Shown here: one piece after another, positions 41,369 through 46,642 of the stretch
Layout: every line of letters begins with the position of its first letter
How positions within the stretch are numbered: the stretch's first letter is position 1
Source of the DNA: Phycisphaerae bacterium
GTDB taxonomy: Bacteria > Planctomycetota > Phycisphaerae > UBA1845 > UTPLA1
Assembly: GCA_019636475.1 (NCBI GenBank)
Contig: JAHBXN010000004.1
Span: 186,001-250,000, forward strand
Direction: 5' to 3'
Length of the DNA stretch: 64,000 bases
Position numbers and translations under genes: made by a program
Notes under the pieces: model-generated
Database searches by the model: none
Told to the model about the DNA's origin: nothing
What the model saw: the letters and a program-made list of their open reading frames with translations, nothing else

Positions 41369-41899
41369 TCACGTTGCTTTGGGCGGTGGCGGAATTTCCA
41401 TCTTCGCGCCGCAGTGTTTGCAGGTTCTCAAGGCTTCGTTTTGTATGAATTCCTGAATGACCGGCTTGAGTTGTGTACCGAGATTCGTCAAATAGAAGTG
41501 CGGGTCGTGCAGAATCTCACCGCACTTTTCACAGTACCATCGCACATGGTCGTGCTCGCCTTCCGGGCGTCGCCGTTCGATGACGAGGCCCACTGTATTC
41601 GCCGGACGCTGTGGCGAATGCGGCACATGCGGAGGCAGCAGGAAGATGTCGCCCTCGTTGATGGGAATATCGCGAACTGTTCCATCTTCGCGAATTCGAA
41701 GTGTCATATTCCCTTCCAACTGGTAATAGAACTCCTCCGTCGGGTTGATATGGAAGTCTTTCCGAATGTTCGGGCCACCCACGACCATGACCATGATGTC
41801 CGTGTCCTCCCAGACGATCTTGTTGCCGACCGGAGGCTTCAGAAGGTGGCGATGTTCATCGATCCATTGGCGGAAATTGAATGCGTTGCCGATGGCCAT
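41369..41899 (-). CDS. nbaC: 3-Hydroxyanthranilate 3,4-dioxygenase
   Basis: The 176-residue cupin enzyme opens the ring of 3-hydroxyanthranilate with O2 on the route to quinolinate or in tryptophan degradation. Family marks are KIVWEDTDIMVMVVGGPN, the iron site DFHINPTEEFYYQLEGN (His, Glu) and LPPHVPHSPQRPANT (His), and two CxxC pairs (WYCEKCGE and RTCKHCGA) that form the rubredoxin-like site of bacterial enzymes. No other kynurenine-pathway gene lies in the window, so it stands alone. It converges with the YdcF-like gene. Confidence 0.93.
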   Translation of the reverse strand: MAIGNAFNFRQWIDEHRHLLKPPVGNKIVWEDTDIMVMVVGGPNIRKDFHINPTEEFYYQLEGNMTLRIREDGTVRDIPINEGDIFLLPPHVPHSPQRPANTVGLVIERRRPEGEHDHVRWYCEKCGEILHDPHFYLTNLGTQLKPVIQEFIQNEALRTCKHCGAKMEIPPPPKAT

Positions 41900-42793: not shown

Positions 42794-43234
42794 TCAGCGG
42801 ATTCCGGTCGACGTGCGCGATTTGTTGGCCAGTTTGTGACCTTCGATCATCACGGTCGCGACGAGGTTGATCGCATCCGTCCAGTCCTGGGTCAGTTGGT
42901 CGTTCCATGCGTTGCCGGCCATATCCTTCATGACTCCGATGAGCGTGTCGCGGACGACGGGATAGTGTTCGGGCTCCGCCTGATAGGCGACATGTCGCCG
43001 TCCGAGATCGAGAAGTGGCTGTCGGAGGGCGTCTGGCTTTCGTAGATTCTGGACCACGAGAATCAAGGACGCGAGCAACTGTTGCTTCTGCGACTGCATG
43101 TCTTTGGGAAACAGCTTGCGCAGCGTCGGATTCTTTGAGAAAAGGTGGGCATAGAAGTGATCGACCAACTCCGGGCCCCTCGGCGCCAGCAGCTTAAAGC
43201 TCTTCTCCAGCCGCTGAATCATCGCTTCGTCCAT
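42794..43234 (-). CDS. Single-domain globin
   Basis: The 146-residue product, started at the ATG at 43234 with GGAGG upstream, is a haem globin of the flavohaemoglobin/SDgb type without a reductase domain. The B/C region FYAHLFSKNPTLRKLFPKD is typical, followed by the E helix and the proximal (F8) His in GRRHVAYQAEPEHY. It probably binds O2 or NO. It is divergent from the ArsC-like selenoprotein gene, sharing a 289-nt intergenic region. NO detoxification or redox sensing would be an inference. Confidence 0.9.
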   Translation of the reverse strand: MDEAMIQRLEKSFKLLAPRGPELVDHFYAHLFSKNPTLRKLFPKDMQSQKQQLLASLILVVQNLRKPDALRQPLLDLGRRHVAYQAEPEHYPVVRDTLIGVMKDMAGNAWNDQLTQDWTDAINLVATVMIEGHKLANKSRTSTGIR

Positions 43235-43523
43235 GGTTCCACCTCCTCGGGTTGAAAGTGTTGATGAGATCGACCTGATGCAGTGCCGTGTCAGATTCAA
43301 AACCGATCGCTGCGCGGATACCGTATCGGAAATGGCACGCCATCGAATAAGGAGGAAATGGTGGGAGGCGTTCAATCACAATTCGAGTGGTCGCCCAATA
43401 ACCGAGGGTTCACCGGGCGTACCGAAAATCATCACATTTGAAAATCGATTATCCCGTTGTCTCTAAATGCGAACGATCGTATCGTGGGGCAGATAATCGG
43501 ATGCAACGTATGAGGATTATTCA

Positions 43524-43898
43524 ATGCCTGTGCGAATCGATTGGTATTATCGCCGCAAGAGCTGAAACTCCTGCGAAAAGTCGCAAGGGTACCTTGCGAG
43601 GAAAAAAGCGGATTTCGTGGAAATCACCGACGCAGGCAAACGTCGATTCACGAAGGACGAAGTGCTCTCGCTTGCCCGGCGCGTCAAGCGCATTGTCGCC
43701 GCGCGCGGCCGCGGCACGATCATAATTGAGATTCAGAAAGACCATCCGTCGGATGCTGACCTGCTGAAGCTGCTGCTCGGTCCGACCGGAAATCTTCGTG
43801 CGCCGACGGTCTTGAAAGGTAGCACCCTTCTGGTCGGCTTCAATGAGGGCGCCTACGACTCGACTTTCAAGGGGCGTTCGTCCGGACGATCCCGCTGA
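43524..43898 (+). CDS. ArsC-like thioredoxin-fold selenoprotein (in-frame TGA = Sec14)
   Basis: The gene begins at ATG 43524 with GAGG 8 nt upstream. Codon 14 is TGA at 43563-43565; reading through it gives 124 residues in one frame with no other stop. Residue 14 lies in KS-U-NSC-EKS, a U-x-x-C redox motif placed where ArsC/Spx-like proteins have CxxC, just after the family start IDWYYRRK. The downstream sequence FTKDEVLSLARRVKRIV and LLLGPTGNLRAPTVLKGSTLLVGFNE is clearly ArsC-like. The product is likely a cytosolic oxidoreductase; the substrate is unknown. A hairpin after the TGA fits a SECIS. The 3' end overlaps the convergent MMPL gene by 46 nt. A conventional call would start near 43617 and lose the active site. 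Confidence 0.85.
43563..43599 (+). promoter_or_regulatory. Candidate bacterial SECIS element
   Basis: The UGA at 43563 is followed after 15 nt by an 8-bp perfect stem TCGCAAGG / CCTTGCGA (43581-43588 and 43592-43599) with a 3-nt loop GTA, or a 6-bp stem with a GGGTACC loop. A G at the loop's first position and a UGA-to-loop distance of about 21-23 nt fit the known bacterial SECIS rules for SelB binding. Confidence 0.7.
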
Positions 43899-46642
43899 AG
43901 CGTCATTAAACCGGGCAATAGCAGGAATGCCGACCCGACGCAGGCGATATCGCAGCAGATTAGAAGAATCCCCAATCGAGCGTTTGACGGAATCTGAGAC
44001 AACAGCATGACACTGAAGCCCAGGCAGATCGCCATCGCGTCGGTGACGATGGCCGGGCCTGTTGTTGAGATCGATTGGACCGCCGCTTCACGAGGCCGTG
44101 ATCCGGAAGCGCCCAGAGATCGAAAGCGGTCGATGAGATGAATCCCGTGATCGACGCCGATTCCCAGCGTCATCGCCGCGAACATCGAGGTTGCCACTCC
44201 GATCGGAATATTCAGCCAGCCCATTACGGCGAAGTTCGCGACGACCGCGAGCGAACACGGAATGATCGCGAGCAGGCCCCAGCGGATCGATCGATTGAGC
44301 AGAATCGTGACAATCAGAATCCCCGCAAGTGATCCGATAACCGAGCGTACCTGCGTACGCACAATGGATTGGATCAAAGTCTGGCTGGCGGCCACGTCGC
44401 CGGCGAATTCGATCTTCAGTTGCTGTGGAGACAGGTGCTCGCGCTCGAAGTCACGAATGTGCTCCATGAGCCGAGCCGTGCGGTGGTAATTGGCGTCATT
44501 GAGGAAGATCGTCACCAGGCAGCGTGAACCATCGCGCGTGACGATTTGCGAGAGTTTCTCCGCTCCACGCAGCCGTTCATATTGCTCCCAGAGCCAGGTC
44601 AGACGCTGCGCGTTCGGTGGGATCCGGCGTTCGTCGTCGCGACGCGCCAACGCGGAGTAGTTTAGTGCGGCGAGATACTCGTAGGGACCGAGCACTCCGC
44701 CGACAGCGTCTTCGTGCCTCGCTCGGATCGATTCGTCGAGTTGGCGGATCAGTTCAAGTGTCTCAGGACGATACATTCGGCGCGGCGAAATGGTGTACGA
44801 CATGTGAATCGGATCCGAACCTCCGGGGTGGAAATTCAGCGGGCCGCCTTCGCGCTTTGTCCTGACCAGGACTTGGCCCGCCTGCTGCTCCACGGATTCA
44901 ATTTCCACGAGGCGGACAAAGCGAGAAGGCAGATTGATCGTCGCCGATCTTGGCGAAATCAAGGATGACGACGTCGCTCGCGCGGACGACGCCTCACGAT
45001 CGATGCTGACTTCGATCCGGGCGAATGCGCCCACCCAATTGCCCGGACTGATGTCGGTCTCCGAGCAAACCGCGTCTATTGGCACGCTGAAATCAAACAT
45101 CCCGACGGCTTCCGGATCAAGATCGCCATGAATCTGCCAATCGGGCGACGCGATCTCGAGCGCGAGCACATGCGCGCCGAAGAACCCACGGTTCACCGCC
45201 TCGGTCGCGCGACGAAACTCGCTGTGGGGTGAAAATCCATCGATCCAACTGTCCTGCACCCTCAATTTTGCAATTCCCCACGGCGTGGCAACGAGTAGCG
45301 CGGCGGCGGACAGGAGGATGATCGATCGCCGACCGATGATCCATTGGGCGACCGCGGCCGGCCTGCTGCCGTTTGGAGGAGGAACGCGGTCTTCCATCGA
45401 CAGCAATCGCGGCCGCACGAGCCGTCCGCGTGGAATCAAGGCCAACATCGCGGGCGCGACGGTCAGCGACCAGGCAAGACAGAAGAGAATGCCGATCGCG
45501 CAGAAGACGCCGAATGCCTGAACCGGTTTCAGGTCGGACAGTGCGAACGAGCAGAATGCAACGGCCGTCGTCATGCTGGTTTTTACGATCGGTCTCCAGA
45601 GATCGTTGACGGTTGCGGCGATCAGCCCTCGGCCATCCGCGTTCGGCATTTCAGCGGCGAGTTGGCGATAACGGCTGAAGATGTGGATTTCGTCTGTGAT
45701 TCCGGCGGCGCAGAGGATAATCGGCAGCACGGCGATCGTCAGGTAGACCGGCACCCCGGACCAGCCCATCAGCCCGAAGGTGAAGACCAGGCACGAACCG
45801 GCCTCCATCAAGGGAATCGCGGCTGCGATCGGATTCCGAAATCGCGCGAGGAATACGAGTGCCATCGTCGCGACAGCAATCGGGACGAGGCCGATGTTTC
45901 CGGCGATCCAGCGGCGAAGGTCAAACAGGGATCGAGGCAGGCCTGTCATCGGCGGCTCCGTGGGATCCCATCCACCCATCCACGCCGACGGCACGCCGAG
46001 ATCTTCCAGAATGTGCGTGCCCAGTAGCGACTCCGCGACCGGTGCGCCGACGACATCGATCCTGTCGGGCGCGGGCGTCATTTCGGACGCCAGCTTTCGG
46101 ACTGCGTGGTACATCGCCTGCCGGTTCTGGCCGACGCGCACGCCGACGAGTACGCAGGCGGCTTTCTCGTCATGGGATATGAGCGTGCCGCGATAGATGT
46201 CGAGCTTGCGCAAATCGTCCCGAAGCCGTGCGATTGCCTCCGGACTTTGGGGGATCTCGGCCAGAAACGTCTGGAAGTTCAGAGTGCCCGGCATGACCCG
46301 GTCGTTTTTCTCCGTGGAGAGGCTGGTCACATGCGACGAATCGATGTCCGGCAGTGCGATCAGGCGGTCGGTGACGTTGCGAATCAGCGAGAGCGTTCGA
46401 GTATTGAAAATGCCGTCGGCGTCGGACGCCGTGATGAGCACGACGATTTGATCGCGCAGATGGAAGGTCGATCGCACTTGGTCGTCAATGAGGATGCCGG
46501 GATCGTGCAAGGGCAAGAGCGCGTGGCCGTCCGTTCGAAGCTGCAGCCGCGTCAACCCCGGCGCGGCCAGTGCGACAATTACCAGTGCGATCACCAGGGT
46601 CGCACGAGGGTGTGCGATTGCCCATCTGCTGAGCCGAGGCAC
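43853..46642 (-). CDS. RND-superfamily MMPL-type transporter
   Basis: The 929-residue protein has twelve predicted transmembrane helices in two halves of six, each with a large extracytoplasmic loop after the first helix, the layout of RND/MMPL exporters. Visible features include FARIEVSIDREASS in the second loop and GVATSMFAAMTLGIGVDHGIHLIDRFR, the helix with an Asp in the proton-relay position. Such proteins export lipids, hopanoids or other hydrophobic compounds by proton motive force. The substrate is unknown. Its 3' end overlaps the convergent selenoprotein gene by 46 nt. Confidence 0.9.
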   Translation of the reverse strand: MPRLSRWAIAHPRATLVIALVIVALAAPGLTRLQLRTDGHALLPLHDPGILIDDQVRSTFHLRDQIVVLITASDADGIFNTRTLSLIRNVTDRLIALPDIDSSHVTSLSTEKNDRVMPGTLNFQTFLAEIPQSPEAIARLRDDLRKLDIYRGTLISHDEKAACVLVGVRVGQNRQAMYHAVRKLASEMTPAPDRIDVVGAPVAESLLGTHILEDLGVPSAWMGGWDPTEPPMTGLPRSLFDLRRWIAGNIGLVPIAVATMALVFLARFRNPIAAAIPLMEAGSCLVFTFGLMGWSGVPVYLTIAVLPIILCAAGITDEIHIFSRYRQLAAEMPNADGRGLIAATVNDLWRPIVKTSMTTAVAFCSFALSDLKPVQAFGVFCAIGILFCLAWSLTVAPAMLALIPRGRLVRPRLLSMEDRVPPPNGSRPAAVAQWIIGRRSIILLSAAALLVATPWGIAKLRVQDSWIDGFSPHSEFRRATEAVNRGFFGAHVLALEIASPDWQIHGDLDPEAVGMFDFSVPIDAVCSETDISPGNWVGAFARIEVSIDREASSARATSSSLISPRSATINLPSRFVRLVEIESVEQQAGQVLVRTKREGGPLNFHPGGSDPIHMSYTISPRRMYRPETLELIRQLDESIRARHEDAVGGVLGPYEYLAALNYSALARRDDERRIPPNAQRLTWLWEQYERLRGAEKLSQIVTRDGSRCLVTIFLNDANYHRTARLMEHIRDFEREHLSPQQLKIEFAGDVAASQTLIQSIVRTQVRSVIGSLAGILIVTILLNRSIRWGLLAIIPCSLAVVANFAVMGWLNIPIGVATSMFAAMTLGIGVDHGIHLIDRFRSLGASGSRPREAAVQSISTTGPAIVTDAMAICLGFSVMLLSQIPSNARLGILLICCDIACVGSAFLLLPGLMTLQRDRPDERPLKVES

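Follow-up and report, generated by a model that had tools for sequence, protein, structure and literature searches.

The window, the whole stretch of 64,000 nucleotides analysed here, carries a gene that almost certainly makes a small redox protein by reading a stop codon as selenocysteine (Sec). Its reading frame, its family, the Sec machinery of the genome, the equivalence of Sec and Cys among its homologues and a hairpin with covarying pairs were established by computation, and these largely independent tests support the selenoprotein status of a gene that annotation based on stop codons would truncate. We consider it highly likely that the account as a whole is correct, namely that the product is a 124-residue protein of a single domain, belonging to the ArsC/Spx/YffB group, with Sec at position 14, which would be decoded with the help of the hairpin and SelB, and with Cys17 as the resolving residue.

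Reading frame, start and surroundings of the gene

An earlier note on this DNA had pointed to an ATG with a GAGG upstream, to a single in-frame TGA at codon 14 followed by an open ArsC-like frame, and to a U-x-x-C at the expected active site. All of this is borne out by the sequence (Table 1): the frame stays open for 110 codons past the codon-14 TGA, until the second TGA is reached, and translation across the first one gives the active-site motif U14-N-S-C17. Within the family, the start lies 12-14 codons ahead of this site in 48 of 50 genes and is an ATG in 46 of the 50, and one of the motifs GGAG, GAGG, AGGA or AAGG is present at -20 to -5 in 47 of 50 starts, a raw count with no shuffled control beside it.

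The same note had predicted that a standard annotation would drop the catalytic N-terminus. Indeed, without readthrough, ORF finding with table 11 gives in this frame only a 93-amino-acid ORF, which begins at an internal GTG (43617) and is devoid of the active site. Agreement with the table 11 ORF is what speaks for this shorter protein being the true product. However, the codons ahead of the TGA are conserved in the family alignment (WYYHRxG), the family starts lie where described above, and the choice of codons downstream maintains the hairpin discussed below; we regard a product starting at GTG 43617 as extremely improbable.

Judging from the neighbouring ORFs, the selenoprotein gene appears to stand alone, between a divergent globin gene and an MMPL-family gene (Table 1). 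A gene for a 3-hydroxyanthranilate dioxygenase (PF06052) is found nearby at 41369-41899 on the minus strand. Neighbourhoods were clustered using ORFs of at least 90 amino acids from 80 contig loci and 11.5 kb of the window. None of the 14 largest clusters contained a window ORF and, besides the selenoprotein gene and ORFs antisense to it, no cluster was present in more than 6 loci. Several neighbours are common to five Planctomycetes loci, which we read as synteny of close relatives, and no common neighbour gene pointing to a pathway was seen in the loci examined.

Table 1. Features of the selenoprotein gene and its surroundings; coordinates are window positions unless a contig is named.
Feature	Position	Strand	Basis or remark
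Complete selenoprotein gene, 124 codons + terminal TGA stop	43524..43898	+	Sequence; NF041106 match
Probable Shine-Dalgarno element GAGG	43512..43515	+	8 nt before ATG 43524
TGA codon 14, predicted Sec codon	43563..43565	+	TGA in 123/145 distinct family sequences
TGC codon 17 (Cys17), second residue of UxxC	43572..43574	+	Cys at +3 across family
5' arm of SECIS-like hairpin, TCGCAAGG	43581..43588	+	
Apical loop GUA	43589..43591	+	23 nt after TGA
3' arm of SECIS-like hairpin, CCTTGCGA	43592..43599	+	
Second TGA, taken as terminator	43896..43898	+	TGA is terminal stop in 63/120 distinct TGA-form genes
Globin gene, upstream and divergent	42794-43375	-	Pfam PF00042
MMPL-family gene	43853-46642	-	Overlaps final 46 bases of selenoprotein gene, tail to tail
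selD, candidate selenoprotein gene	G000 contig C2:328684-329607 (L048)		In-frame TGA

Homologues and the selenocysteine machinery

With Cys substituted for Sec, the translation matches the NCBIfam model NF041106, 'ArsC family (seleno)protein', from end to end (121 bits for a cut-off of 85; profile positions 1-107 of 107; E 3.2e-35). The UXX-star models matched weakly, under their cut-offs. A family match was found in 52 of 200 related genomes, the window's own genome being counted. From this set 52 loci were fetched, 51 of which are readable at the site, with TGA in 50 and TGC in one (L022); left out of the site reading were L071 and the match in G102, both of which stop short of the site, the latter not having been fetched. 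L071 (G011:C5:52366-52599) is a second, N-terminally incomplete copy in G011 that looks identical to the C-terminal portion of the other gene there, and is possibly an assembly duplicate. A phylum-wide sample gave a match in 90 of 392 genomes, 9 of them weak only (E above 1e-20), and a scan of named genomes found 507 relatives. The best 80 of these 507, which were retained, come mostly from Planctomycetota, with some from Acidobacteria, Melainabacteria-type bacteria, Zixibacteria, Methylomirabilis and others, and the nearest named relatives of the window genome among these 80 are planctomycete MAGs. Since one of the two scan patterns ends in Cys, the named-genome scan should lean, if at all, to Cys forms.

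Taken together, 145 distinct sequences, window included, have TGA at the site in 123 cases, Cys in 21 and Asp in one, so that Sec or Cys occupies position 14 in 144 of the 145 and the sole exception is an Asp paralogue. The codon was TGC or TGT in ten Cys forms of Cys-only genomes that were read singly. Among 121 distinct TGA forms the +3 position is Cys in 119, as it is in 15 of 15 Cys forms. The two other TGA forms, one of them L069 from G098, have Ser and read UxxS, as in a separate family of Sec-containing arsenate reductases. The Asp paralogue (L190, G242:C12:140611-140952) comes from a genome that has a Sec form as well, has kept the +3 Cys and contains a TGA triplet one base out of frame at the site.

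A single TGC-to-TGA change in a Cys gene, be it a nonsense mutation or a sequencing error, would give the same picture in the window, and the gene would then be dead or mis-assembled. Against this stands the presence of TGA at the same codon in all 123 sequences, and a sequencing error is unlikely because it would not hit this codon again in 122 further distinct sequences. In addition, the rest of the frame is conserved and the downstream hairpin is missing from most Cys forms, which leaves next to no probability for an error or a mutation. The best tree of the 145 sequences has 12 changes between Sec and Cys, while the strongly supported branches force 2; as the sequences are related by descent, neither the Sec/Cys counts nor the hairpin counts given below are independent events.

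The genes selA, selB, selC (tRNA-Sec) and selD, for which the earlier note had proposed a search, are all present in the genome from which the window comes (G000; 4.41 Mb, 95% complete). SelA scores 439 bits and SelB 300 bits, or 337 when its C-terminal piece is included, selA adjoining and directly following selB, and the tRNA-Sec has the anticodon TCA and a score of 66 bits (gathering score 47). The SelD sequence contains its own in-frame TGA, read by eye as C-A-G-U-A-G-K, at what is presumably the known Cys/Sec position of SelD, with a predicted 4-bp hairpin (loop CGGU) shortly after it. Thus, the window gene is not the only one in G000 that calls for Sec decoding.

SelB exceeds its cut-off in 115 of the 200 related genomes; of the 52 that have a family match it does so in 48, and the four others (G004, G099, G106 and G111) are 63-83% complete. 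A SelA match at E 0.001 occurs in 122 of the 200, and among the 52 matched relatives it is absent from G004, G070 and G106 and weak in G111. In the phylum sample, where SelA is over the cut-off in 263 of 392 genomes, 67 of the 71 genomes that have a strong TGA form possess it, versus 2 of the 10 that have Cys forms only (Fisher p 6e-7). The four genomes that have a strong TGA form without SelA are G508, G445, G480 and G362; three of them are 77-82% complete, and G445, at 91%, is in about 480 contigs. Cys-form genomes with SelA are G327 and G449, both Cys-only members of the phylum sample, and also G009.

Codes in which TGA is reassigned exist in some bacteria, which lends some colour to the idea that TGA stands for a different amino acid, such as Trp or Gly, throughout this organism. 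Yet the gene itself ends with a TGA, as do 63 of 120 distinct TGA-form genes, the aligned residue is Cys in 21 of the 22 non-TGA sequences, and the full Sec machinery is present. We attach almost no weight to an organism-wide reassignment and retain Sec as the residue at codon 14.

The hairpin downstream of the TGA

The window hairpin, TCGCAAGG-GUA-CCTTGCGA, consists of 8 base pairs, starts 15 nt past the TGA and has a predicted free energy of -10.7 kcal/mol for its 19 nt. The bacterial SECIS model, in the form in which it is set out in the text of PMC13188914, has a loop of 3-9 nt, an upper stem of 4-16 bp, a distance of 16-37 nt from the UGA, a G in the first two loop positions and an MFE of -7.5 or lower, and the window hairpin agrees with it in every one of these respects. 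A rule of only 4 pairs is unspecific: of the 2155 TGA triplets that the window contains, 1463 pass it, and 11 have 8 pairs together with a loop of 3 nt. The free energy of a 57-nt segment relative to synonymous recoding also turned out to be a poor discriminator (mean z -0.5, negative in 35 of 51; window z -1.27). A pair-by-pair test and the contrast between Sec and Cys forms were used in its place.

Counting the window, 50 TGA forms were aligned, and 90.3% of their cells pair, as against 35.5-63.3% for slid versions of the stem. None of 500 shuffles of these 50 forms reached the observed pairing, the double changes or the covariation score, and the number of further pair types was not above that of the shuffles (413 of 500 as high). 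The cleanest covariation in the hairpin is that of the top pair, with the codons GGG-TTC in 34 of the 50 forms, GAG-TTT in 10, GGG-TAC in 5 and GGG-TCC in 1; the combinations GGG-TTT and GAG-TTC are absent among them. The wider set contains 23 cases of GAG-TTC, and in 21 of these the stem is in a shifted register. CTT encodes the Leu within the stem in 48 of 51 genes, whereas it makes up 51 of the 494 Leu codons found farther downstream in these genes.

For the Sec/Cys contrast a hairpin was counted if it had at least 6 pairs, a loop of 3-9 nt, a G in the first two loop bases and a spacing of 16-37 nt. Such a hairpin was detected in 114 of 121 TGA forms versus 4 of 21 Cys forms, leaving 7 TGA forms without a 6-pair hairpin, and the position of GUU is shared by 108 of the 121 and 4 of the 21, respectively. 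A triloop register with at least 6 pairs accounts for 90 of the 121 TGA forms (GGG-TTC 54, GAG-TTT 29, GGG-TAC 6, AAG-TTT 1), and an AGUU tetraloop register, shifted by one base, for 22 (GAG-TTC 21, GAG-TTT 1). One further TGA form has a 5-pair triloop and eight do not reach 5 pairs in either register. A test in a fixed register had credited 22 TGA forms with just 4 of 7 inner pairs, and the shifted AGUU register was found on re-inspection. Five TGA forms in neither common register (L084, L090, L092, L105 and L152) were inspected by eye; some show a stem of 5-6 bp with a longer loop, and these five may use a SECIS element with a longer loop.

These observations make it reasonably likely that the SECIS hairpin of this family comes in two registers, a GUU/GUA triloop or an AGUU tetraloop, both of which would hold the GUU equally far from the UGA. 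As part of the same reading, the closing pair of the triloop register would switch between G-C and A-U in step with the encoded residue, GGG (Gly) going with TTC or TAC and GAG (Glu) with TTT. If this is true, the hairpin in the RNA limits which synonymous codons, and even which amino acids, are used in the active-site helix, and its loss accompanies the exchange of Sec for Cys. Having Sec forms, most of them with a hairpin, alongside Cys forms, few of which have one, provides a natural data set on what a bacterial SECIS element needs and on how genomes exchange Sec for Cys.

Predicted function and comparison with known selenoproteins

The claim that the TGA is decoded as selenocysteine has gained support from the machinery, the Sec/Cys equivalence and the hairpin that fits the SECIS model. 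By analogy with established bacterial Sec insertion, translation would start at 43524, the mRNA hairpin would recruit SelB with Sec-tRNA(Sec) so that codon 14 is read as Sec, and the second TGA of the gene would end translation. In the U-x-x-C configuration of the product, the Sec14 selenol would attack the substrate and Cys17 would resolve the intermediate. The conserved Arg92, in the L-R-A-P motif, presumably corresponds to the Arg found in the active site of ArsC and Spx, and probably lies close to that of the window product. Invariant in the 50 aligned proteins are, among others, W7, R11, the Sec/Cys site, G62, G86, G89, R92, A93, P94, G105 and F106.

The structure model of the product (pLDDT 87.8, pTM 0.77) has its best fold matches in Spx (3ihq, Z 8.6, 88 residues aligned, 2.8 A) and YffB (1rw1, Z 8.4, 86 aligned, 2.8 A), with ArsC-like proteins at Z 7.5 and thioredoxin- or glutaredoxin-like chains at 7.6 and lower; Foldseek TM-scores are about 0.5, and in a profile search against solved structures Spx ranks first (5e-9). 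The model would place the protein in the ArsC/Spx/YffB group of thioredoxin-like folds, aligned nearly end to end with Spx and YffB, with the reservation that the fold margin alone is thin since plain thioredoxin and glutaredoxin chains reach Z 7.6. Going by motif and fold, the product is most likely a selenol-disulfide oxidoreductase in which Sec14 is the predicted nucleophile and Cys17 the resolving residue.

A different role could be considered, in which the protein uses Sec to regulate RNA polymerase in the manner of Spx and is not an enzyme: Spx provides the closest solved structures by both sequence and fold, and its C-x-x-C, a redox switch, is the motif with which the U-x-x-C aligns. 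Such a role seems to us unlikely: the Spx models remain far under their cut-offs (TIGR01617, Spx/MgsR, 26.5 bits versus 75.05; PRK01655, 28.8 versus 123), YffB and ArsC-like proteins match the fold about equally well (Z 8.4 to 7.5), and a selenol is more typical of enzymes than of regulators. The ArsC-group fold and the family name might likewise suggest a true arsenate reductase using Sec. However, Pfam ArsC (PF03960) gives the window product 20.1 bits, under the gathering cut-off of 24, and has no match at E 0.001 or better anywhere in genome G000; nor did the loci examined have a common neighbour gene, in a comparison made by clustering of ORFs. We think it quite improbable that the oxidoreductase predicted above is an arsenate reductase. 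For the 'ArsC-like' protein of the earlier note, identity as an arsenate reductase is not supported because the Pfam ArsC score is below the cut-off.

That note had also called the gene a cryptic selenoprotein. Selenoprotein it is by the evidence above, but 'cryptic' is too strong, since NCBIfam and two reviews already carry the family as a selenoprotein. The more recent review, of May 2026, lists the family as predicted only, the NF041106 entry 'Arsenate reductase-like protein, UxxC' appearing in its Table 1 under 'Predicted with high confidence' with a citation of PMC2398784 (PMC13188914). The same protein name is found under 'Predicted' in Table 1 of PMC9312934, again with PMC2398784 as its source. 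Among the matches listed for ArsC/selenoprotein/Planctomycetes, ArsC family/NCBIfam and Spx/selenocysteine, titles and abstracts revealed no experimental paper on the family, and none was found on Planctomycetota together with SECIS. The main text of PMC5029168 has none of the family terms sought, and PMC12013277 does not mention ArsC, arsenate reductase or planctomycetes. The two-register hairpin and its agreement with the Sec/Cys split are absent from the matches listed and from the main-text passages covered.

Compared with NCBIfam NF041106 (ArsC_rel_Se_1), the window product is alike in its whole-length match and its U-x-x-C, and there is no substantial difference. With the 'Arsenate reductase 2' of the Global Ocean Sampling selenoproteome (cd03032, UxxC; table row 42, 21, 238, of which we take 42 to be the Sec sequences) it has the UxxC motif in common, a likeness drawn from the table entry (PMC2398784). 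It differs from the selenoprotein arsenate reductase listed as an ArsC-type selenoprotein in PMC13188914, which has UxxS and the model TIGR00014, in having UxxC and matching another model, Ser being present at +3 in just 2 of 121 TGA forms. Spx/MgsR (TIGR01617) and YffB have the fold and the C-x-x-C position of the window product, which in contrast lies far under their family cut-offs and has Sec in place of the first Cys. The family is a known, computationally predicted selenoprotein family of which the window gene is a well-supported further member, and the two-register hairpin with its match to the Sec/Cys split is perhaps a modest new addition.
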